A stretch of 37,984 nt of DNA from a virus: positions 1 through 37,984 of IMG/VR virus record IMGVR_UViG_3300030117_004700. One strand, written 5' to 3'. Of the stretch, positions 378 through 37,284 are shown piece after piece. Positions within the stretch are counted from its first letter, which is position 1, and each line of letters opens with the position of its first letter. The translations under genes were made by a program, and so were the position numbers. Under the pieces are notes generated by a model that was not told the origin of the DNA, did not search any database, and saw nothing but the letters and a program-made list of their open reading frames with translations.

Positions 378-613
378 TTTCGGACGACTACAACGTCTCC
401 TTCGCCATCATCTTCGTCTTCATCCTCTGATGCATGAAAAACGAGCAATTCTGTACCGCTTTGAACGTCTCTCATCTCTGGGTGAACGTTAGTTTGGACT
501 GGTTGACCCAATGCTTTGAAAGATTCTGTCATACTTTTCCACATAAAGACGATGGCAGAGACCAAAGTCGTCATGAAAAGTAAAAAATAGAGGAAAAGTA
601 CGGTTGAGTTCAT
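374..613 (-). CDS. Small N-terminally anchored membrane protein with acidic tail
   Basis: This is a 79-residue protein. Residues about 3-25 form one strongly hydrophobic segment (VLFLYFLLFMTTLVSAIVFMW), consistent with a signal anchor in the host inner membrane. A polar stretch follows, then an acidic run at 62-73 (ASEDEDEDDGEGD) and a short VVVVRK end. No enzymatic motif is visible. It overlaps the next gene at 374-377 and the previous gene at 610-613, both as ATGA, so it is the middle of a coupled trio. It might act as a membrane-associated adaptor or inhibitor, but nothing in the sequence says which. A cyanophage hypothetical is the safe label. Confidence 0.72.
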   Translation of the reverse strand: MNSTVLFLYFLLFMTTLVSAIVFMWKSMTESFKALGQPVQTNVHPEMRDVQSGTELLVFHASEDEDEDDGEGDVVVVRK

Positions 614-1014
614 TGTCTGATCACATTTTTGAGATTTTGTAGTATATCTCCTTCAACTCTTTGAGTAATTTTGTCTAAAATATCGATATCGATGCCCATA
701 AATGGAGGAACAACTCCTAAAAGACGTAATAAACCGTCTACGAAGAACGCTAAAACAGTAAAACCAAGAATCATACTGATCACAGTGGCATCTCTGTTGT
801 GTTTTCTCATTGATGCTTCATCAATTGCCTTCGCTTCTGCCAATGCAGCAGCAATAAGTTCGTCAACCTCTCTTCTTGTGTAGGTTGTCTCTGGCATTTT
901 GAATTGCACCTTGGCAAAAACATCAGAAATTGGTAAATTTTTGGTTATTTTCTCGGTCATAGTTACTTGAGGAGAAGGTTTGCCCATGCTGCTATCACCA
1001 AAAGGGTCAAGCAT
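610..1014 (-). CDS. Hypothetical single-pass membrane protein, 134 aa
   Basis: The N-terminal part (1-75) is hydrophilic. Around 45-73 it contains a probable amphipathic helix rich in Ala, Glu and Arg. Residues about 77-101 form a transmembrane segment (VISMILGFTVLAFFVDGLL). The C-terminal 30 residues are again helical and charged. Methionines at 10 and 19 are alternative starts. The gene lies six bases after the stop of the last sulfotransferase gene and overlaps the next membrane-protein gene by ATGA, so it belongs to the same transcript. I do not recognise a family; the topology suggests a membrane-anchored helical protein. Confidence 0.72.
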   Translation of the reverse strand: MLDPFGDSSMGKPSPQVTMTEKITKNLPISDVFAKVQFKMPETTYTRREVDELIAAALAEAKAIDEASMRKHNRDATVISMILGFTVLAFFVDGLLRLLGVVPPFMGIDIDILDKITQRVEGDILQNLKNVIRQ

Positions 1015-1020
1015 AATTGA

Positions 1021-2052
1021 TTATACCTCATAGTTGTATGGTTTTCCCCAGTATAGCGGTAAACTACCATACTTGTCCACCCATTGTTGGTAAACGGGGA
1101 ACAATGGTCTTACTTTATTGTATAATTCATCTTGTAACCAGTATTTATCACTTGTCCACTGGTCTTGAAGACCCAACAACTCAGGAGCATTGGGTCCACA
1201 GTCGGGACAATAGACATTTTGATGGATTTTTTTGATGTCATAGTCTAGAAAGTCGGATAATCTTTGCTTTTCTCTCTCTTGTTGGTCACCTTCCCACAAT
1301 TGTTCCATTATGATGACATGAATCGGGCAGACTCTCTCCCATTTCTTAATAATTTCAACATAATTCCAATAATCATGTCGTCTTATCTTGTCAAAAAAGT
1401 GTTCAGTGAGTTGTTCTTCACTATTCCACTGCTCTTTTGACTCAGGACCCCAAAAACTGTTCACTTCTGACCATAATCGACGAATCGGGTCTCTTACAAT
1501 CATCAAAACCTTGACATCAAAGTCTTCAGAAAGTCTTTCTACTACCTCATGACAGAATTTTTCTGGTAATTGAGCGTTTGAATTTGAGAAATCACCAACT
1601 GCCTGATATGGGCAGTTATTCTCTTGTAGATGCTTCCAATGAGTTTTGTAATATTGAATGTATTTCTCAAATAAAGGGTTCTTTACATAGTCATCTATTT
1701 CTTCCTGAGTAAAGAAGCAGTCTTTTCTCACACTAGCAAAAACACCCTCGACTCCATCTGATGTCAGGACTGTATCTGGGTTTTTCTCTAATTCTTTCAA
1801 TAACTCTTGATTCTTCTGAAGAACTGTTTTTGCCCACTTACGATTTCGTTCAGATCTTGATTTACCACTAAATTTCTTTTGCTTTCGTTCACTATAAAAT
1901 CTTTCAGAACTACTCATACTCAAGAAATCAAGATATTCACCCTCTTTCTTCAATCCAGTGTGCATGTATTGATTATCCAGTTCTAGAGTATACCAAAGTG
2001 GAGTTGTTGCCGACCACCCAGTACCCGAACTGATTATAAACTTAGGTTTCAT
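1021..2052 (-). CDS. Sulfotransferase-like protein (paralog 1)
   Basis: This 343-residue protein resembles PAPS-dependent sulfotransferases, which move a sulfuryl group from PAPS to a hydroxyl or amine on a glycan, lipid or small molecule. The N-terminal strand-loop (KPKFIISSGTGWSATTPLW, residues 2-20) is in the position of the 5'-phosphosulfate-binding loop. VLMIVRDPIRRLWSEV (182-197) matches the 3'-phosphate site, with Arg187 and Ser195 spaced as in the family (R then S eight residues later). The C-terminus YGSLPLYWGKPYNYE is shared with the two upstream paralogs. It is close to the paralog at 2962-3978 along its whole length. The start overlaps the upstream stop by ATGA (2052-2049). The acceptor is not predictable; the fold call is firm, the activity is inferred. 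Confidence 0.85.
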   Translation of the reverse strand: MKPKFIISSGTGWSATTPLWYTLELDNQYMHTGLKKEGEYLDFLSMSSSERFYSERKQKKFSGKSRSERNRKWAKTVLQKNQELLKELEKNPDTVLTSDGVEGVFASVRKDCFFTQEEIDDYVKNPLFEKYIQYYKTHWKHLQENNCPYQAVGDFSNSNAQLPEKFCHEVVERLSEDFDVKVLMIVRDPIRRLWSEVNSFWGPESKEQWNSEEQLTEHFFDKIRRHDYWNYVEIIKKWERVCPIHVIIMEQLWEGDQQEREKQRLSDFLDYDIKKIHQNVYCPDCGPNAPELLGLQDQWTSDKYWLQDELYNKVRPLFPVYQQWVDKYGSLPLYWGKPYNYEV

Positions 2053-2975
2053 AGTGGTTTACCAGTTTGATAGTCTAAAGGGACTCCCCAATACAAAGGA
2101 AGCGACCCATAATAGTCCTCCCATTCATCATATACGAATTGAAACTTTTCTTTTGCTCTGTAATATAGTTCTGGTGTCATTTCAAATAAATTTTGACCCA
2201 TAAACTGACAAGCAGTATCTTTATCATACTCGATAAGATGTCCTCGATCAGGTGAATATTGGTTTTTGTATAGATCTGTGATTGGATGGTCAAGAAACTC
2301 AGAAAGTTCCTTTTTGGCAGTTCCGTCGCCTTCCCATAATTCCTCCATCACCACTGTATGATTGCTTTCTTCACCCCATAACTCATTATCCTCCTTAATT
2401 CTCTCAATATAGGAAGGAGGATTGAAATGATCTGGAAAATCCAAAGTCTCAGGACATTTGGCAAGATACTGTCCGAATGCTCGACGAATTGGATCACGAA
2501 AAATCTTGATTTGCTTGAATTCAAACTCAGTTTTCAGTGCTCTGTAAAAATCACGGATAAATGGTGTCAAATGATAAGTCCAACCACTACCAACAGACTT
2601 ATATCCCTTTGTTATCACATGCTCATATAGTGCAGTATAAAAATTGATGTATTTTTCGATTTTAGGTCTACCTAATACCAAAGTCTTGAAGTGATTTGTT
2701 GAAAAATCTCTGAGTGGTTCAAGATCTTCTGTTGTATTCATATTATGAGAACCTATTTTTCCGATTTGGTAGTTTTCCCAAGTATTTGTAAGAACACGTT
2801 TCGATAGTTCAGGACATTGAGGGGCATCCTTGTATCTGACGCCTTTACTAAAGTACCTGAACGCTTTAGTGTAACCAAAGTGAGCATATTTTGATTTTCT
2901 TTGAAGAGTATAGACCAATGGCGAGGTCGCTGCCCATCCATACTTACTCAAAAGTAGAAATTTAGGTTTTTGCAT
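2049..2975 (-). CDS. Sulfotransferase-like protein (divergent middle paralog 2)
   Basis: This 308-residue protein has the same ends as its neighbours: an N-terminal KPKFLLLSKYGWAATSPLVY loop and a C-terminal YGSLPLYWGVPLDYQ. The interior is shorter and much more diverged. In the N-terminal loop, SGTGWSATTP of the paralogs has become SKYGWAATSP. The 3'-phosphate motif reads IKIFRDPIRRAFGQY (Arg160 kept), and the residue equivalent to the conserved Ser is Gly168. That Ser contacts the 3'-phosphate in the family, so PAPS binding may be weakened or this copy may be non-catalytic. It overlaps the upstream paralog by 14 bases and the downstream one by 4, so all three should be co-translated. Confidence 0.8.
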   Translation of the reverse strand: MQKPKFLLLSKYGWAATSPLVYTLQRKSKYAHFGYTKAFRYFSKGVRYKDAPQCPELSKRVLTNTWENYQIGKIGSHNMNTTEDLEPLRDFSTNHFKTLVLGRPKIEKYINFYTALYEHVITKGYKSVGSGWTYHLTPFIRDFYRALKTEFEFKQIKIFRDPIRRAFGQYLAKCPETLDFPDHFNPPSYIERIKEDNELWGEESNHTVVMEELWEGDGTAKKELSEFLDHPITDLYKNQYSPDRGHLIEYDKDTACQFMGQNLFEMTPELYYRAKEKFQFVYDEWEDYYGSLPLYWGVPLDYQTGKPL

Positions 2976-3978
2976 AGTTATATGGTTGACCCCAGTATAA
3001 AGGAAGACTCCCGTATCTGTCTACCCACTCTTCGTAGATAGAAAACAGTGGTTTGACCTTATTATACAACTCTTCTCGTAAAAAATACTTGTCAGATGTC
3101 CACTGGTCTACAAGACCGGGATATTGAGGTGCATTTGGTCCATAATCGGGTGAATAGACATTCTGATGAATTTCTCCGATGTCATAATCCAAAAATTTGG
3201 ATAATTTGTATTTTTCTTCGTCTTGTTCGTATCCTTCCCACAATTGTTCCATAATCACAACATGAACGGGTGCAACTTTTTCCCATTTTTCGATAATTTT
3301 CAAATAATTGTAATATCGCCTTGTCATGACTCTTTCAAGAAACGCTCTTTCAATACTTTCTTGATCACCATCTAAAAAAGCACCACTTTCAGACCAGAGT
3401 CGGCGAATTGGATCTCTGACGAGCATAATGACCTTGATATCAAAGTGTTCTTGTAGTTTTGGTATTGTAGACTCTATAAACGACTCTGAAAGAAAAGCAT
3501 TTGAGTTAGAGAGGTCTGCAACTGCTTGATAGGGGCAATTATTTTCTTGCAACGTCTCCCAAACCCTTTTGTAGTAAGTGATGTATTTTTCGAGTGTGTA
3601 AGGTGGTGTGATAAAGGCATCTATGTCTTCTTGAGTCAAATATAGGTCTTCTCTGATCGCTGCAAGTGATCCTTTGTAATTCCAAGTCGGATGCTCGCTT
3701 CTTATCTCTCTCATCTTGGTTTTTTTGTATTCATCTCTTTCTGCCAGAACTCTCTTTGCCATTTTCTTCGTTTTTTCAAAAGATGACAGATTTTTCAATT
3801 TTTTATCATGAAAACTTGATCTCAGTCTTTCTTGAGGTGTCATTGCTAACAAACTAAGATATGAACCTTCTTTTCTGAATCCTGTATGTAAATACTTGTT
3901 ATCCAACATCAATGTGTACCACAAGGGAGTTGTTGCCGACCACCCAGTGCCCGTACTCATAATAAACTTCGGTTTCAT
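2962..3978 (-). CDS. Sulfotransferase-like protein (paralog 3, operon-first)
   Basis: This is a 338-residue protein if translation starts at the ATG at 3978-3976, which aligns exactly with the MKPKFI start of paralog 1. An in-frame extension to 4020 would add 14 residues (MLRSIHIWYSTIIY) that paralog 1 lacks and would run into the divergent HNH gene, so I reject it. Motifs: 5'-phosphosulfate loop STGTGWSATTPLW (8-20) and 3'-phosphate motif VIMLVRDPIRRLWSES (183-198) with Arg188 and Ser196. Shared blocks with paralog 1 include ENNCPYQAV and LSNSNA, besides the common YGSLPLYWG end. It is the first gene of the minus-strand operon. It probably uses PAPS made by the host; the acceptor is unknown. 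Confidence 0.86.
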   Translation of the reverse strand: MKPKFIMSTGTGWSATTPLWYTLMLDNKYLHTGFRKEGSYLSLLAMTPQERLRSSFHDKKLKNLSSFEKTKKMAKRVLAERDEYKKTKMREIRSEHPTWNYKGSLAAIREDLYLTQEDIDAFITPPYTLEKYITYYKRVWETLQENNCPYQAVADLSNSNAFLSESFIESTIPKLQEHFDIKVIMLVRDPIRRLWSESGAFLDGDQESIERAFLERVMTRRYYNYLKIIEKWEKVAPVHVVIMEQLWEGYEQDEEKYKLSKFLDYDIGEIHQNVYSPDYGPNAPQYPGLVDQWTSDKYFLREELYNKVKPLFSIYEEWVDRYGSLPLYWGQPYNYAKT

Positions 3979-3985
3979 ATAGATA

Positions 3986-3995
3986 ATAGTACTAT
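3986..3995. promoter_or_regulatory. Perfect 10-bp palindrome in a 28-bp divergent intergenic region
   Basis: ATAGTACTAT is its own reverse complement. It sits between the start of the minus-strand sulfotransferase operon (3978) and the plus-strand HNH gene (4007). On the minus strand a weak -10 (TATAGT, 3996-3991) overlaps it, with a poor -35. It could be an operator serving both directions, but a chance palindrome in AT-rich DNA is also possible. Confidence 0.3.
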
Positions 3996-4006
3996 ACCAA
4001 ATATGT

Positions 4007-4390
4007 ATGCTTCTAAGCAAACCTTCAGAGTATCTTTATGAAATGTTGGCGAGTAATTATGGGAAGGCGAAAAAGATGTGGAGAAAACATATAAAGGAGG
4101 CGTGGGATTACAAGTGTGCATATTGTGGTGAATACGGTGATACGATAGATCATATACATGCTCAGACACATGGTGGGCAGAGTGAATTGACAAATATGGT
4201 TTGTTGCTGTGATAAGTGCAACAAAGACAAATCACACGAAGCAGTGGAGATCTGGTACTTTCAACAAGAGTTCTTTGATCAAAAACGTTGGGAGGCAATA
4301 GAAGTGTGGAGAGCATCACTTGCTCCTGCTCAAAGAAAGAGATATATAAGAGGACGGGGAGGTATTCCCACTAAGTGCATTGTTTTATGA
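4007..4390 (+). CDS. HNH endonuclease
   Basis: This 127-residue protein carries a clear HNH nuclease core with a zinc ribbon. CAYC (37-40) and CDKC (68-71) are the two Cys pairs, TIDHIHAQTHGG (46-57) holds the Asp-His pair, and LTN (61-63) gives the Asn. Such proteins nick or cut DNA; in T4-like phages many are free-standing homing endonucleases found at gene boundaries. The N-terminus before the core is basic (GKAKKMWRKHIKEAW). Met13 (4043) is a plausible alternative start. Neither start has a good ribosome binding site. The gene lies at the switch point between the minus-strand operon and the plus-strand genes, and its stop overlaps the next start as ATGA. Confidence 0.85.
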   Translation: MLLSKPSEYLYEMLASNYGKAKKMWRKHIKEAWDYKCAYCGEYGDTIDHIHAQTHGGQSELTNMVCCCDKCNKDKSHEAVEIWYFQQEFFDQKRWEAIEVWRASLAPAQRKRYIRGRGGIPTKCIVL

Positions 4391-31195: not shown

Positions 31196-31389
31196 TGAAC
31201 CTCCCATCTCTCCAAGATATAATAAGGAGATACTTTCGTCTTCCCCGTAAGAAATTATGGATCGTTGCTTTGAAAATTAATCGTTGGCCAGTCAAATGGT
31301 GGGACGAAGAAGTAGAAGCAAGAAGGAGAAAGGAGGAATTACGTAAAAAGCGAATCAAATCTTTATACCCCAGTAATGGCAAAAAATGA
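31195..31389 (+). CDS. Small basic protein, 64 aa, GTG start
   Basis: This 64-residue protein starts at a GTG (31195) that overlaps the stop of the giant gene (TAGTG). It is strongly basic: LQDIIRRYFRLPRKKLW, a Trp-rich middle (INRWPVKWWDEE) and a coiled KKR-rich helix (VEARRRKEELRKKRIKSLY) at the end. There is no membrane segment. Its stop overlaps the next start as ATGA, so it is translationally embedded between two late genes. The composition suggests nucleic-acid or protein binding in tail assembly, but the family is unrecognised. Confidence 0.7.
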   Translation: MNLPSLQDIIRRYFRLPRKKLWIVALKINRWPVKWWDEEVEARRRKEELRKKRIKSLYPSNGKK

Positions 31390-31643
31390 TTAATGCATGG
31401 AGTTTAGCAGCAGAGGTTCTTGAGGGAACTTTAGATGAAACTTATCCAATTATGAAAAAAGCACCTATCAACGATCGTGACGATCTAAAAAGAGATTTAG
31501 ATACTGGAGCGATCGTGAACACAGACACCATATATTATGAAAAATATATGGCAGAAAAGAACAGGGTCAAAACACAACGGAATGAAATCACCGAACTGAG
31601 AGCAGAGATAGAACTGCTCAAAGCGTTGATACGTGATAAATAA
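31386..31643 (+). CDS. Small coiled-coil protein, 85 aa
   Basis: This is an 85-residue protein. The N-terminal half, AWSLAAEVLEGTLDETY and DRDDLKRDLDTGAIV, looks mixed. Residues about 55-85 form a long heptad helix (AEKNRVKTQRNEITELRAEI, then ELLKALIRDK), likely a dimer or trimer coiled coil. It is coupled by ATGA to the basic gene upstream. The late-promoter element GATAAATA covers its last codons and stop. The function is unknown; a small assembly or trimerisation factor for the nearby fibre proteins is possible. Confidence 0.72.
   Translation: MINAWSLAAEVLEGTLDETYPIMKKAPINDRDDLKRDLDTGAIVNTDTIYYEKYMAEKNRVKTQRNEITELRAEIELLKALIRDK
31635..31642 (+). promoter_or_regulatory. Late-promoter-like element (GATAAATA)
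   Basis: GATAAATA overlaps the final codons (GAT AAA TAA) of the coiled-coil gene and lies 21 bases before the ATG at 31664. It matches the ATAAATA core of T4 late promoters. Confidence 0.6.
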
Positions 31644-31663: not shown

Positions 31664-32026
31664 ATGTCAGTTCCAACAGTCAATCTAGTAATTGAGCAGG
31701 GTACTGACTTCGCGAGGACGTATTCCTTGAAGAAGTCAGATAATACCCCATTGGATCTTTCCATCTATACGTTTGAAGCGAATATGTTCAAAAGTCGTTC
31801 CGCTATGCAAAAGGGAATGTCAGGTAACATGATTAGTATGGGCACTACCTTTGGTAATACTCCCTCACTAGGGCAACTTACTGTATCCTTTGCATCGACA
31901 GAGACAGCAGTTGGCATACTTACAGCAGGTAGATATGATTATGATATTGTTATTGAAAATACCAATAACAATAAAAAGACCAAGGTTATTACTGGTCAAG
32001 CATTAGTAAATGGCACCGCTATCTAA
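31664..32026 (+). CDS. Small virion-associated protein, 120 aa
   Basis: This 120-residue beta-rich protein has the pattern VNLVIEQGTDFARTYSLKKS, LDLSIYTFEANMFKS and a terminal TAGRYDYDIVIENTNNN. That layout (QGTDF, D-L-S/T-xY-x-F, G-x-Y-x-Y-D-I) is common in phage tail or fibre-associated proteins resembling the N-terminal domain of BppU-like proteins. It probably forms an Ig-like or similar beta domain in the tail appendage. It follows its own late promoter and shares a TAATG junction with the next gene. Exact assembly partner unknown. Confidence 0.74.
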   Translation: MSVPTVNLVIEQGTDFARTYSLKKSDNTPLDLSIYTFEANMFKSRSAMQKGMSGNMISMGTTFGNTPSLGQLTVSFASTETAVGILTAGRYDYDIVIENTNNNKKTKVITGQALVNGTAI

Positions 32027-32442
32027 TGGCAGATGACATCCAAGTATTTGTAGTCGAATCAGATTCTGATTTCGTCGCGTCTATTACAGTAGACGATAAT
32101 AATGTGGCGGATACAAATATTTCGGGTGATGGTGTTGGAGACCTTATAGTGCAATTTGTTTCTAGTGGAACAGGAGTTGGAGGAACAGTAAATAAATTAG
32201 TAGAACTTGGAGACATACAATCCACTAATCTCAATAGTTCAACAGGGGCAGGAAATAAATTTGTATTGACATATGATGCACCAAATGATAAGTTTGTATT
32301 CGTAAATCCAGACGAGGTAATAGATGCAGCAGTGGGTGCCGGAGCAACATTCCCACCACCAGTAGGACTCTCTACAGCAGCAATAGACTACTTAGACACT
32401 GCATTAGACGATAAGATAGATTTAGACGCTGGTACATTCTGA
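32026..32442 (+). CDS. Tail-associated protein with DAGTF C-terminus (copy 1)
   Basis: This is a 138-residue protein. After an acidic, Gly-rich start it has a unit with STNLNSSTGAGNKFVLTYDA and KFVFVNPDEVIDAAVG (about 65-100). It ends in YLDTALDDKIDLDAGTF. Both the unit and the ending recur in the next protein, so the two are paralogs. It is probably a fibre or adaptor subunit in the tail-appendage operon. It joins its neighbours by TAATG (32026) and TGATG (32442) overlaps. No catalytic motif is visible, and the specific role is unknown. Confidence 0.74.
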   Translation: MADDIQVFVVESDSDFVASITVDDNNVADTNISGDGVGDLIVQFVSSGTGVGGTVNKLVELGDIQSTNLNSSTGAGNKFVLTYDAPNDKFVFVNPDEVIDAAVGAGATFPPPVGLSTAAIDYLDTALDDKIDLDAGTF

Positions 32443-33002
32443 TGAGCAGTCTAAAGGATCTAGATGATGTAGTTTCAACTAATCTAAATTCAGGTGCTGA
32501 TAAATTTGTACTAATCTTCGATGCAGATCAAAATAAGATGATCTTCGTAAATCCAGACGACGTAATAGATTCAGCAGTAGGAATATCATCAACAAGACAT
32601 ACACCAACTTTTTCTTGGTGGGATGGTGTTTTAGGAACTCTTACAGTGCAAATTGCTAATCACGGGTTCTCAGTGGGAGATCATATTAAGATTGCTGATT
32701 ATGGAATAACTTTTACCTGTGATCAAGATAGTCATGCTACTAATCATCCATATCCTAGACCAACAGATTTTGCTAGTGATAGGTGGTTGACTATTACTCA
32801 GACTCAGACAAATACTTTCAGAGTCCAAGCAACTGATACAATACCCTCTACAAACGTAGGTGTTCATACATTTGTATCTGCAGTTGCAAACAGTGTTTAT
32901 CACACATCAGATCCTACACCAATAGGACTTACTACAGAAACAATTGCTTACCTTGATACAGCATTAGATGATAAGATAGATTTAGACGCAGGGACTTTCT
33001 AG
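32442..33002 (+). CDS. Tail-associated protein with DAGTF C-terminus (copy 2, with inserted module)
   Basis: This 186-residue paralog of the previous gene has the same LDDVVSTNLNSGADKFVL and MIFVNPDDVIDSAVG unit at 5-46 and the same YLDTALDDKIDLDAGTF end. Between them about 110 residues are inserted: NHGFSVGDHIKIADYGITFT, CDQDSHATNHPYPRPTDF, WLTITQTQTNTFRVQATDT and VGVHTFVSAVANSVYH. This inserted unit is one I recognise as recurrent in cyanophage tail proteins, and its NHGFSVGD start resembles the HGF/GxxVxY units of the giant proteins. It is likely a fibre-tip or adaptor beta domain. The stop is followed by the fibre's late promoter. Confidence 0.76.
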   Translation: MSSLKDLDDVVSTNLNSGADKFVLIFDADQNKMIFVNPDDVIDSAVGISSTRHTPTFSWWDGVLGTLTVQIANHGFSVGDHIKIADYGITFTCDQDSHATNHPYPRPTDFASDRWLTITQTQTNTFRVQATDTIPSTNVGVHTFVSAVANSVYHTSDPTPIGLTTETIAYLDTALDDKIDLDAGTF

Positions 33003-33020
33003 GTATAGTTACTTTTTTTA

Positions 33021-33027
33021 ATAAATA
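33021..33027 (+). promoter_or_regulatory. Late-promoter-like element (ATAAATA)
   Basis: ATAAATA (within AATAAATACT) lies 35 bases before the tail-fibre ATG at 33063, preceded by a T tract. It matches the core of T4-type late promoters. Confidence 0.62.
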
Positions 33028-33062
33028 CTAAAGAAGAAAACAACATAACTTAAACAAAATAC

Positions 33063-36000
33063 ATGGGAGCTCCTGTTTTACAGTTTAAGAGGGGTCAGTT
33101 TTCAAATCTACCGGGACTACGTGCGGGTGAACCGGGATTTACGACTGACAAATTTGACCTCTACGTGGGTATTGACTCCACGACGTCTGCAAATAAATTT
33201 TTCGGATCACATCGTTATTGGAACAGAGAAACTACGACAGTAGGTTCATCTGTCAGATTAGTTGAAGGAAGTAATAATGGTTCAAATTATATTGCACTCA
33301 AATCACCTAACTCGCTAGGTGGAAATGTTACATACACTTTACCCGGAACCGATGTCGCGAACGGTATCTTAGTAAGTGATGGATCAGGTAATTTATCATA
33401 CACAACCACAGTCACAGGATCTGGTTCTGGTTTATCAGCAGGATCTGTTCCATTAACATCACTTGATATAGATGGTGGAACAGACATCGGTGCTGATTTA
33501 GCAGACGGTGACTTACTTGTAGTTGATGACGGTGCAGGCGGTACTAATAGAAAGACCGCTATGTCACGAGTCAAGACTTATGTTCTTGGCGGTGGATCAG
33601 GAGCAACCTTTGCCGGAATCAATGTAACAGGTATTGGTACTATTGCTTTTGCTGATGCAACTCAACTCAAAGTATCTGGTGTTTCTACATTCACAGGTGC
33701 TATTGATGCAAACGGAAACTTAGATGTAGCAGGAACTGCCACATTTGCCACTCCACTTGCAAACTCAAACTTAGCAAACGATAGTGTTTCTTTTGGTGGA
33801 GTATCTGTTGATCTTGGTGCTTCTGATGCAACACCTGCATTTGATCTAAGTGATGCTACAAACTATCCTACCAGTAGTTTGAGTGGTACTATAACCAATG
33901 CTCAACTTGCAGGATCTATTGCAAATGATAAACTTGCTGGATCGATTGCAAATAACAAATTAGCAAACAGCACAGTATCTTTTGGTGGTATATCTCTAGC
34001 ACTAGGTGGAACTGATGCAACTCCGGCATTCAACCTGAGTGATGCTACAAACTATCCTACAGGTAGTTTGAGTGGTACTATATCCAATGGTCAGTTAGCA
34101 GGATCTATTGCAGATTCAAAACTTAACACCATAACCACAGCAAATAAAGTTGGTCTTGCTGCTTTAGATATAGATGGTGGCACAGATATAGGTGCTGATC
34201 TAGCGGATGCTGACTTACTTATTGTTGACGACGGAGCAGGCGGTACAAACCGTAAGACTGCAATGTCTAGAGTCAAGTCTTATGTTCTAGGTGGTGGATC
34301 AGGTGCTACATTCGCTGCTATCAACGTAACAGGTATTGCAACAGTAGCATATACAGATGCAACTCAACTCAAAGTATCTGGTATCTCGACATTTACTGGA
34401 CAGACAAACCATTCAACAATCAATGCTTCAAGCACTGTTACTGGTAGTGCATTCCACACAGGTGCTGAAGGATCTGCAATCAGAGTTACTTCAAACACAA
34501 TATCAGGTCCTGCTACAATCACTCTTGACCCTGCAGGGGTAGGTGATAATACAGGTAAGGTTGTTATTGCCGGTGACTTACAGATTGATGGTACAACTAC
34601 CACGGTTAACTCAACCACTATGACAGTGGATGATAAGAACCTTGTTTTAGGATCTGGTGCTGCTAATGATGCTGCTGCAGATGGTGGTGGTATTACTATC
34701 GAGTCTGGTTCAGGTAATAAGACATTCCAATTCCAAGATACAGGTGATAACTTAGGATCTTCTGAAAACCTAAACGTTGCTTCTGGTAAGGCATACAAAG
34801 TAAACAATGTATCAGTTCTAAATGCAACAACTCTTGGATCAAGTGTCGTAAACAGTTCTCTTACATCTGTAGGAAACCTAACAACTCTTGATGTAACTGG
34901 AGCAACAAACCTAAACGCTACTACTCAGTCAACCAGTAACACAACTGGTGCTTTGATAGTTGATGGTGGTGTTGGTGTTGCTAAGAACCTCAACGTAGGT
35001 GGTGCTCTTGATGTTGATGGACAAATCACAAGTGGTGCCCCACTAAGAAACTCAACCGGAGATGGATTGATTCCCGGAGTTGGTGTTATCACAGCGACTT
35101 CTGATGCCGGTCTTGTAACTGCATTCAAATTCAGAGGTAATGGTCTAGAGAACTTCATTGTTGAAGATGGAGTTGCTGACGTTGTTCTATCTGGTGTTGC
35201 TGCTACTACATTCACAACATCTGAGACAACAACTGCAACTCAAGGACAGACTGCTATATCAGTTTCTGCAGGATACACAGATGGATTCCTTGACGTATAT
35301 CTAAATGGTGTTCGTCTAATCACAGGAACTGACTACACTCAGACAAACGCAACCACAGTTACTCTTGCATCAGGTGCTACTGCAGGCGACGAAATTGAAA
35401 CTGTTGCTTGGAAATCACTTGGTGATGTTGTAAACATCTCAACACTTAAAACTGCTAGTGATCTAACAGTATCTGGGGTGGCAACTGCAACCGGTGGATT
35501 TGTTGGAAACTTGACAGGTAATGTTACTGGTAATACATCTGGTTCGTCTGGATCTTGTACTGGTAACTCTGCTACTGCTACTGAAGCAACAAACATTACT
35601 GTCACTGCAAATAACGCAACCAACGAGACTGTTTATCCATTATTTGTAGATGGTGCAACTGGAACTCAAGGTGCTGAAACTGACACAGGATTATCTTATA
35701 ATCCTTCAACAGGTGCTCTTACATCTACATCTTTTGTAGGTAACCTAACTGGTAACGTAACTGGAAATACTTCTGGTTCATCCGGATCTTGTACCGGTAA
35801 CGCTGCAACTTCTACTGTTGCTACAACTGTAACTGTTGCTGATGAGTCGGCAGACACAACTTGTTTCCCTCTATTTGCTACTGCTGCAACTGGAAACCTC
35901 GCTCCTAAGAGTGGAGATAACTTAACATTCAATGCTGACACAGGTGCTTTATCTGCTACATCTTTCTCAGGATCTGGTTCTGGATTGAGTGCAGGTACTG

Positions 36001-36779
36001 TTCCATTAACATCACTTGACATAGACGGTGGTACAGCGACATCAACACTCGCTGATGCTGATCTATTCATCGTTGATGATGGTGCAGGTGGTACAAACCG
36101 TAAGGTAACCTTTGAAACCATCTCTGACGCGATTCTAGGCGGTTCTGGTGGTGCTACATTTGCTGCTGTAAATGTAACTGGTATTGGTACATTCGGTGGA
36201 ATAATCGATGGTAACGGTGGTGCTAACATCTCAGGTGGTGCAGGTTTAGTTGCTTCAAGTGCAAAGGTTTCAGATCTTACTTCTGGAAGAGTTGTTCTTG
36301 CAGGAACATCTGGAGAGATCGAAGACAGTGGAAACCTCACATTCAACGGTTCAGCACTAACAGTTACTGGTACTGCTAACGTAACAAGTAATCTTACAAT
36401 TGGTGGTAACCTAACGGTCAACGGTACGACTACACAGGTCAATACAGTCAACACAACCATTGAAGATACATTACTTGAACTTCAGAAGGTTGATGGTGGT
36501 AACTTAGGTTCAGATACCAACAAAGACGTTGGTCTTGTAATGAACTACTATGACGGTTCTGCTAAGAAAGCAGCAGTCTTCTGGGATGATTCTGCAGGAA
36601 GATTTGCTTTCGGTAGTGTGGTTACTGAAACTGCAGGTGTTCTAGGGTCTATCACATACGGTGGTGTTGAAATCGGTTCGTTGTACCTCAACGATTGTGC
36701 AGGTGCTTCACAAGTTATCTCATGTAGTGGTACTACAAGATCACTTGAGAACATCACTATCGACGGTGGTTCGTTCTAA
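33063..36779 (+). CDS. Repetitive tail-fibre-like protein, 1238 aa
   Basis: This is a 1238-residue Gly/Thr/Ser/Asn-rich protein. The first 40 residues (LQFKRGQFSNLPGL, GEPGFTTDKFDLYVG) resemble the N-terminal domain found on phage tropism determinants and fibres. The shaft is built of repeats: LDIDGGTDIGADLADGDLL units (three), GGSGATFAGINVTGIGT units (three), SFGG..ATPAFDLSDATNYP units (two) and GNLTGNVTGNTSGSSGSC units (two). About 100 residues at the end are less repetitive (DVGLVMNYYDGSAKKAAVFW, GGVEIGSLYLND) and probably form the receptor-binding tip, ending in TIDGGSF. No chaperone domain is visible. It has its own late promoter and a downstream terminator. Host-receptor binding is inferred. 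Confidence 0.84.
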   Translation: MGAPVLQFKRGQFSNLPGLRAGEPGFTTDKFDLYVGIDSTTSANKFFGSHRYWNRETTTVGSSVRLVEGSNNGSNYIALKSPNSLGGNVTYTLPGTDVANGILVSDGSGNLSYTTTVTGSGSGLSAGSVPLTSLDIDGGTDIGADLADGDLLVVDDGAGGTNRKTAMSRVKTYVLGGGSGATFAGINVTGIGTIAFADATQLKVSGVSTFTGAIDANGNLDVAGTATFATPLANSNLANDSVSFGGVSVDLGASDATPAFDLSDATNYPTSSLSGTITNAQLAGSIANDKLAGSIANNKLANSTVSFGGISLALGGTDATPAFNLSDATNYPTGSLSGTISNGQLAGSIADSKLNTITTANKVGLAALDIDGGTDIGADLADADLLIVDDGAGGTNRKTAMSRVKSYVLGGGSGATFAAINVTGIATVAYTDATQLKVSGISTFTGQTNHSTINASSTVTGSAFHTGAEGSAIRVTSNTISGPATITLDPAGVGDNTGKVVIAGDLQIDGTTTTVNSTTMTVDDKNLVLGSGAANDAAADGGGITIESGSGNKTFQFQDTGDNLGSSENLNVASGKAYKVNNVSVLNATTLGSSVVNSSLTSVGNLTTLDVTGATNLNATTQSTSNTTGALIVDGGVGVAKNLNVGGALDVDGQITSGAPLRNSTGDGLIPGVGVITATSDAGLVTAFKFRGNGLENFIVEDGVADVVLSGVAATTFTTSETTTATQGQTAISVSAGYTDGFLDVYLNGVRLITGTDYTQTNATTVTLASGATAGDEIETVAWKSLGDVVNISTLKTASDLTVSGVATATGGFVGNLTGNVTGNTSGSSGSCTGNSATATEATNITVTANNATNETVYPLFVDGATGTQGAETDTGLSYNPSTGALTSTSFVGNLTGNVTGNTSGSSGSCTGNAATSTVATTVTVADESADTTCFPLFATAATGNLAPKSGDNLTFNADTGALSATSFSGSGSGLSAGTVPLTSLDIDGGTATSTLADADLFIVDDGAGGTNRKVTFETISDAILGGSGGATFAAVNVTGIGTFGGIIDGNGGANISGGAGLVASSAKVSDLTSGRVVLAGTSGEIEDSGNLTFNGSALTVTGTANVTSNLTIGGNLTVNGTTTQVNTVNTTIEDTLLELQKVDGGNLGSDTNKDVGLVMNYYDGSAKKAAVFWDDSAGRFAFGSVVTETAGVLGSITYGGVEIGSLYLNDCAGASQVISCSGTTRSLENITIDGGSF
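33460..34400 (+). repeat. Tail-fibre long repeat, period 702 bp (two copies)
   Basis: The segment encoding LDIDGGTDIGADLA through GGSGATFAGINVTGI and TQLKVSGVSTFTG begins at 33460 and recurs at 34162, exactly 702 bases (234 codons) later, and a partial third copy begins near 36017. Copies differ mainly at codon third positions. Confidence 0.8.
33789..34115 (+). repeat. Tail-fibre medium repeat, period 189 bp (two copies)
   Basis: The segment encoding SFGGVSVDLG...ATPAFDLSDATNYP...SLSGTI..AQLAGSIA starts at 33789 and repeats from 33978, a period of 63 codons. It sits inside the first 702-base repeat unit. Confidence 0.78.
35499..35800 (+). repeat. Tail-fibre short repeat, period 234 bp (two copies)
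   Basis: The segment encoding FVGNLTGNVTGNTSGSSGSC begins at 35499 and again at 35733, 234 bases (78 codons) apart. Confidence 0.75.
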
Positions 36780-36807
36780 AATAGAGTTATAAAACTTTGA
36801 TATATAA

Positions 36808-36831
36808 GGGGACTAGACAGTCCCCTTTTTT
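36808..36831 (+). terminator. Rho-independent terminator after the tail fibre
   Basis: GGGGACT (36808-36814), loop AGAC, AGTCCCC (36819-36825), then six T residues. It lies 29 bases after the fibre stop codon. Confidence 0.9.
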
Positions 36832-36841
36832 ATTGTTTACT

Positions 36842-37045
36842 ATGGATCCTGAAGTACAAGCATTGATTGCAGTTTACCAAAAGAGATTGGCAGACGTAAC
36901 TGCACAAGCGATTGCCTATGAAGCAAGAATTTCAATTTTGGCGAAACAAATACAAGAATTAACACAACAACCTCCTATTCCAGAACCTCCTGCACCACAG
37001 AAAAAATCAGCAAGAGGTAAAAAAACAGACGCTGGAACTTTTTAG
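36842..37045 (+). CDS. Coiled-coil microprotein with DAGTF end (67 aa)
   Basis: I start this gene at ATG 36842. An in-frame TTG at 36797 would place coding sequence across the terminator hairpin, so I reject it. The protein has a helical N-terminal 38 residues (VQALIAVYQKRLADVTAQAI, EARISILAKQIQELTQ) that look like a coiled coil. A Pro-rich linker (PPIPEPPAPQ) and a basic stretch (KKSARGKKT) follow, and it ends in DAGTF, like the two paralogs at 32026 and 32442. It may be a small virion or assembly protein that interacts with the fibre. No promoter is evident, so its expression may need read-through of the terminator at 36808. Confidence 0.66.
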   Translation: MDPEVQALIAVYQKRLADVTAQAIAYEARISILAKQIQELTQQPPIPEPPAPQKKSARGKKTDAGTF

Positions 37046-37104: not shown

Positions 37105-37284
37105 ATGTGTTCATTTCAAAACAAAATGCATAACAGAGAAGTCTCTTACAACAATCTTCGAGCATGGACTGCTGAAGGTGAAATGCTAAGTTCAACTGAT
37201 CCTATTGATGATTATTTTGAGTGTATAACCGAATGCGATCCAGTAGACAAACAATGTATAACATCATGTAGAACTTTATTGTAA
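37105..37284 (+). CDS. Cys-rich microprotein with twin CX3C motif (59 aa)
   Basis: The frame from ATG 37105 to TAA at 37282-37284 encodes 59 residues. Five of them are Cys, four in a compact pattern near the end: C-x3-C-x6-C-x3-C (CITECDPVDKQCITSC, residues 40-55), which resembles a helical hairpin with two disulfides or a metal site. The N-terminal half (VSYNNLRAWTAEGEMLSSTD) is ordinary. If transcription begins about six bases after TATAAT, the first ATG would be at or just upstream of the 5' end; the second in-frame ATG (37126) is an alternative. No strong ribosome binding site is visible. The function is unknown. Confidence 0.66.
   Translation: MCSFQNKMHNREVSYNNLRAWTAEGEMLSSTDPIDDYFECITECDPVDKQCITSCRTLL

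Follow-up and report, generated by a model that had tools for sequence, protein, structure and literature searches.

Among the closest described arrangements is the collar of phages T5 and DT57C. In T5 the L-shaped fibres are grafted onto a dodecameric collar of p132 (PMC10038345). In DT57C the end segments of the fibre extend the beta-sheets of LtfC, the fibre amino terminus being the end that enters the LtfC ring (PMC10713586). A gene coding a related protein is found in the DNA analysed here (the window), an IMG/VR virus record of 37,984 bases. The window baseplate genes are T4-like and code gp25-, gp6- and gp7/gp8-like wedge proteins. They are followed by the gene for a protein of 2,335 amino acids (24188) and then by a cassette (Table 1) whose products include two small tagged proteins (STP1 and STP2), a tail fibre and a coiled-coil protein that share their last residues, the tag. 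Beside the baseplate genes, minus-strand genes at positions 610-4020 have no PHROG or confident Pfam match, and the one at 2962-4020 shows a weak likeness to sulfotransferases, below the cut-off. A protein of 59 amino acids containing Cys (37105-37284; phrog_665, function unknown) is kept after the cassette in close relatives.

Table 1. Genes and tags of the cassette and its upstream neighbour, in window coordinates.
Feature	Position	Strand	Evidence and remarks
Small coiled-coil virion protein (phrog_473), untagged, conserved upstream neighbour	31386..31643	+	PHROG E 6.7e-14; neighbourhoods
LtfC/p132-like Ig-fold collar protein, candidate tag receptor	31664..32026	+	phrog_1084/phrog_3304 'L-shaped tail fiber protein assembly'; DT57C LtfC and T5 p132 matches
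STP1, small tagged protein, 138 aa	32026..32442	+	family alignment; D, G, F invariant at end
STP1 C-terminal tag DAGTF	32425..32439	+	
STP2, STP1 paralogue with inserted fibre-type domain, 186 aa	32442..33002	+	BLASTP blocks; phrog_5342/1276 in insert
STP2 C-terminal tag DAGTF	32985..32999	+	
Tail fibre, Mtd_N-like N-terminus, 1238 aa	33063..36779	+	Pfam Mtd_N E 8.7e-6; phrog_697
Fibre C-terminal tag DGGSF	36762..36776	+	D146, G148, F150 invariant, 38 aligned sequences
Coiled-coil protein, 67 aa, Pro/Lys-rich linker and C-terminal tag	36842..37045	+	
Coiled-coil protein C-terminal tag DAGTF	37028..37042	+	

The Mtd_N match of the fibre scored 26.0 bits, slightly below the curated Pfam cut-off of 26.3. 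The fibre also contains LDIDGGTDIGADLADADLLIVDDGAGGTNRKTAMSR-type repeats, which begin with a tag-like stretch (IDGGT). STP1 has no match in the PHROGs search. The STPs of P-SSM2 (E 2e-31) and S-T4 (E 1e-13), and more weakly those of contig L047 and the fused one of L172, match phrog_13853, a family with no described function or tag.

The initial annotation had counted four proteins with the same ending, which it found coded by differing codons in the two small ones. The endings are real: DAGTF lies flush with the stops at 32442, 33002 and 37045, and DGGSF with that at 36779. STP1 and STP2 share 17 end residues while 7 of the 17 codons differ (43 of 51 nucleotides identical). No other ORF of the window terminates in [DNES][AGST]G[ST][FYWL], and the sole other match to this class of pentapeptides sits inside a spurious minus-strand ORF. 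BLASTP, however, aligned STP1 to STP2 in two homologous blocks (E 8e-15 and 3e-13, 50% and 79% identity) flanking the fibre-type insert of STP2. The two are paralogues and the window therefore holds three independent families, not four. The profile of the coiled-coil family aligned with that of the fibre or STP family over DAGTF/DGGSF alone (5 columns), and profile comparison found no homology between the ends of STPs and fibres. The carboxyl-terminal parts of the P-SSM2, S-CAM9, S-SRM01 and S-SKS1 proteins aligned with the window-type fibre end over only 7 residues (TLDGGTF/TIDGGSF). As judged from sequence, the tag is carried by at least three non-homologous families and by additional fibre types in other phages: it is short, conserved and at a fixed position on proteins that are not homologous.

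Enrichment at the exact carboxyl terminus, suggested as a check in the initial annotation, was scanned in the loci fetched by STP homology and in 28 whole records. D[AG]G[ST]F is far above the controls and chance is excluded. The fetched loci comprise ~1,576 unique ORFs, a set biased toward the tag by its selection; in them the pattern is exactly C-terminal 86 times, one residue in 3 times and never at offsets 2-11, and it occurs elsewhere 6 times in ~596,000 positions. The pattern followed by a stop is found 47 times in the 28 records (~2.0 Mb), against one match for the reversed-pattern control, and all sites among those 47 that were compared with gene calls lie inside the cassette. The seed for the STP loci included residues adjacent to the tag and the single seed of the coiled-coil search spanned it, while the fibres and the whole-genome scans were selected independently of such seeds. 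Genome-wide, the exact D-[AG]-G-x-F-stop is nearly confined to the cassette; the looser [DN][AGSC]Gx[FY]-stop, where genomes lack the cassette, occurs at about the frequency of its control. Those looser matches outside the cassette that were read are spurious ORFs or one P-SSM4 protein of 55 amino acids. PFGTF, an ending often seen in pelagiphage-like loci, is not the tag but the conserved gp14 terminus.

The phenomenon extends beyond the window to T4-like phages of marine and fresh waters and is larger than the initial annotation saw. In 64 viral contigs with STP relatives the gene order is LtfC-like gene, one to three STPs, Mtd_N fibre and coiled coil, and the LtfC-like gene lies directly 5' of the first STP in nearly all metagenomic cassettes covering that stretch. 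The cassette follows a 24188-type gene in marine contigs and gp16-type or unrelated genes in others. Fibre bodies range from ~330 to 1,870 amino acids and the end is constant: 47 of 51 non-redundant fibres terminate in D-x-G-x-F, followed by one residue at most, and the other four are a short ORF close to the end of a contig and first copies of doubled fibres. In the fibre alignment the invariant F150 is the last residue, and D80, G82 and F84 are invariant among STPs. Judged by eye, the residues at tag positions three and four of an STP do not match those of the fibre in the same genome. Doubled fibre genes coding the same Mtd_N-like amino terminus occur in L033, L057, L059 and L061; their first copy is untagged, and the second ends in the tag where it was seen (L033, L061).

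Coiled-coil proteins end more variably, some in DAGTF, DAGSF, DGGEF, DSGEF or DGGTFE and others without the tag; freshwater members have acidic-Phe ends like EEDFS or PEDFS. Their linker before the tag is Pro/Lys-rich, hypervariable and ~10 to 65 residues long, yet D, G and F stay constant in the tagged members. In the coiled coils of L015, L016 and L018, DAGDF, DAGNF and DAGGF are internal to the carboxyl-terminal tail, before a Lys-rich end.

Cultured phages with the ending are P-SSM2, S-CAM9, S-T4, S-SKS1, S-SRM01, S-B05, S-B43, RN05-S, DSL-LC02 and Melnitz-2, and in some of them the tagged fibre ends are unrelated to the window fibre. Prochlorococcus phage P-SSM2 was reached by the scan alone: PSSM2_118 (527 amino acids), coded just before gp13, ends in WSSTLDGGTF and is neighboured by a coiled-coil protein lacking the tag and by an STP ending in LDINGGNF. 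Synechococcus phage DSL-LC02 codes, in its complete genome, only two tagged proteins, both in the cassette. Whole-genome scans found three D[AG]GxF-stop sites and one DGGTFE in each of S-B05, S-B43 and RN05-S, all in the cassette. STP homology led to S-CAM9 (STP IDLDGGAF, fibre DTIDCGTY), S-T4 (LEIDGGTY), S-SKS1 (SILDGGEY), S-SRM01 (NAIDGGTY) and Methylophilales phage Melnitz-2 (STP RLNGGTF, fibre GIDGGTYS). These endings widen the motif to [DN]-[GA]-G-x-[FYW], mostly with no more than one trailing residue. Whole-genome scans found no D[AG]GxF-stop in T4, T5, HTVC008M, S-TIM5, Syn19 or P-SSM4. Phage B23 codes two small proteins with the variant tags DLGEY and DMGEY; outside them, those of its D[AG]G-type matches that were read are not gene ends. 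Literature searches on these peptides returned unrelated text only and nothing on a cyanophage C-terminal fibre motif; they turned up no paper that describes the motif.

Sequence establishes that the tag is exactly terminal and invariant, that non-homologous proteins carry it and that it is confined to the cassette. The ending is probably a C-terminal short linear motif, approximately [ILV]-[DN]-[GA]-G-x-[FYW]-COOH, which selection keeps as a peptide for docking to, or assembly with, one common partner. The initial annotation had seen in it a tag with its own job. Invariance, the families concerned, the terminal position kept behind coiled-coil linkers of very different length and cassette confinement bear out the tag. 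Docking to a common receptor in the tail, one of the roles then proposed, fits best. STPs, fibre and often the coiled-coil protein would all bind the same partner via the tag, during assembly or in the finished tail. As in the 12-subunit ring of a T5-like LtfC, whose beta-sheets are extended by short strands from the fibre amino-terminal ends, the carboxyl-terminal peptides of several cassette proteins might make a comparable contact, a strand plus an aromatic plug, so that proteins differing in oligomeric state could share one ring. The tag may lie in a flexible stretch: in the coiled-coil protein a variable linker precedes it, and it has lower confidence in the models, although these are of single chains of probable oligomers. 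The model of the fibre end found no fold match in the PDB.

The LtfC/p132-like product of 31664 is, by association, the likeliest partner of the tag, although this assignment is tentative. Its family profile matches DT57C LtfC (8hqz, E 0.0016) and T5 p132 (7qg9, E 0.0044), and the protein matches phrog_3304 with E 3.5e-13. LtfC-STP fusions occur naturally in L047 (9638-10216), L172 (8001-8561), L174 (8001-8561) and as B23 gp320 (L074:11593-12156). The AlphaFold model of the L047 fusion, a homologue of 31664, is an Ig-like beta-sandwich with confidence ~95 over the LtfC domain and ~50-64 in the tag region (a single chain of a probable oligomer); its best Foldseek hits are 8hqz (E 1e-7) and 7qg9 (E 8e-7), then BppU-type baseplate and neck proteins. 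An LtfC-like gene is present in 10 of 10 tagged isolates and absent from P-SSM4, S-TIM5, Syn19 and T4, four genomes that have no convincing tag. It is because of homology, gene position directly before the first STP, co-occurrence in tagged isolates and fusions that an LtfC-like ring is the best receptor candidate.

Four observations weaken the assignment. The two LtfC/p132-like genes of P-SSM2 (PSSM2_214 and PSSM2_216, annotated hypothetical, at 173,637-175,177) lie ~70 kb from its tagged genes. An LtfC-like gene occurs without the tag in HTVC008M and in many pelagiphage-like contigs. Tagged neighbours make no difference to the LtfC core residues (GRxxYD, K, G). Finally, the tag itself is modelled with low confidence. 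No tag pocket could be named in the LtfC-like family, since tagged and tagless genomes differ at scattered positions and not in the invariant core. Window-type fibres have their own Mtd_N-like amino terminus, so that their tagged end may be distal.

Chaperone recognition, also among the roles first proposed, would make the tag a peptide for a releasing assembly chaperone of phage or host origin and not a contact of the finished virion. Fibres commonly need chaperones near their carboxyl-terminal end, as for Pam3 gp24-gp25 (PMC9608196), the tag lies at the terminus a fibre chaperone would encounter, and PHROGs labels the neighbour 31664 as an assembly protein. However, the 31664 homologues solved in T5 and DT57C are structural proteins of the collar (PMC10038345; PMC10713586), the cassette showed no Tfa/gp38-like gene, and the short coiled-coil protein has no evident need for a fibre chaperone. 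This role is unlikely, if still ahead of trimer-tip closure, which fits poorly. A local cap, with D-G-G as a turn and the terminal aromatic residue as a plug of the trimer axis, would suit fibres, which are trimers, and the coiled-coil protein if it is one too. It is improbable: the variable linker means that the tag cannot cap the coil, the last 10 residues of the fibre model have no secondary structure (confidence ~70), and generic caps would not require invariant D and G across unrelated domains.

Two readings in terms of gene history are less probable still. If the conserved gene ends served as crossover sites in the exchange of fibre modules, the peptide would be a by-product, which agrees with cassettes in differing genomic contexts and with fibre bodies that vary before a constant end. 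The synonymous divergence between STP1 and STP2 inside one genome disfavours this, and the DNA common to coiled-coil and fibre ends is insufficient for recombination, leaving it a very small chance. Descent of a longer carboxyl-terminal domain, named at the outset as what would refute the tag if it accounted for all four proteins, does account for the 32026/32442 pair. For fibre and coiled-coil protein it is refuted at the profile level by similarities that end after 5-7 residues, and as a general explanation of the endings it is highly improbable. The reading as a tag is well supported; trimer closure, long shared descent and gene-end recombination are disfavoured, and the receptor is inferred.

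T4-like cyanophage fibre genes are hard to annotate and, to our knowledge, how fibres attach in these phages and their relatives is largely unknown. For phages of Prochlorococcus, Synechococcus and Methylophilales, the five-residue ending offers an annotation handle on members of the cassette, and it bears on how unrelated fibres share one attachment platform. It is conceivable, if some way short of likely, that aquatic T4-like phages have a widespread C-terminal address tag, by which proteins ending in [DN]-[GA]-G-x-[FYW] are taken up by one common receptor, an LtfC-like ring being the foremost candidate. If so, carrying the tag would be enough for phages to exchange fibres, small proteins and coiled coils that are unrelated to one another.

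The bacterial SSB tail is a flexible, acidic docking peptide ending in Phe at the carboxyl terminus. The tag resembles it in joining acidic residues to a terminal Phe, on what may likewise be a flexible tail, but SSB is one protein with many partners, whereas the tag is on many proteins with presumably one partner, and the sequences differ. Chaperones of the Tfa/gp38 type (phage Mu, Pam3 gp25) likewise act near the carboxyl-terminal part of fibres, but they bind clients by a large surface and not by a terminal pentapeptide (PMC9608196), and have no identified homologue in the cassette. A further likeness is to the T5 p132/DT57C LtfC collar, whose homologous Ig-like protein is encoded in the cassette and whose ring-bound fibre end peptides, from LtfA (pb1), are the mode of contact proposed here. 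In DT57C the donated strands are amino-terminal and come from one fibre protein, while in the cassette the conserved peptide is carboxyl-terminal, carried by at least three unrelated proteins and found in T4-like phages.
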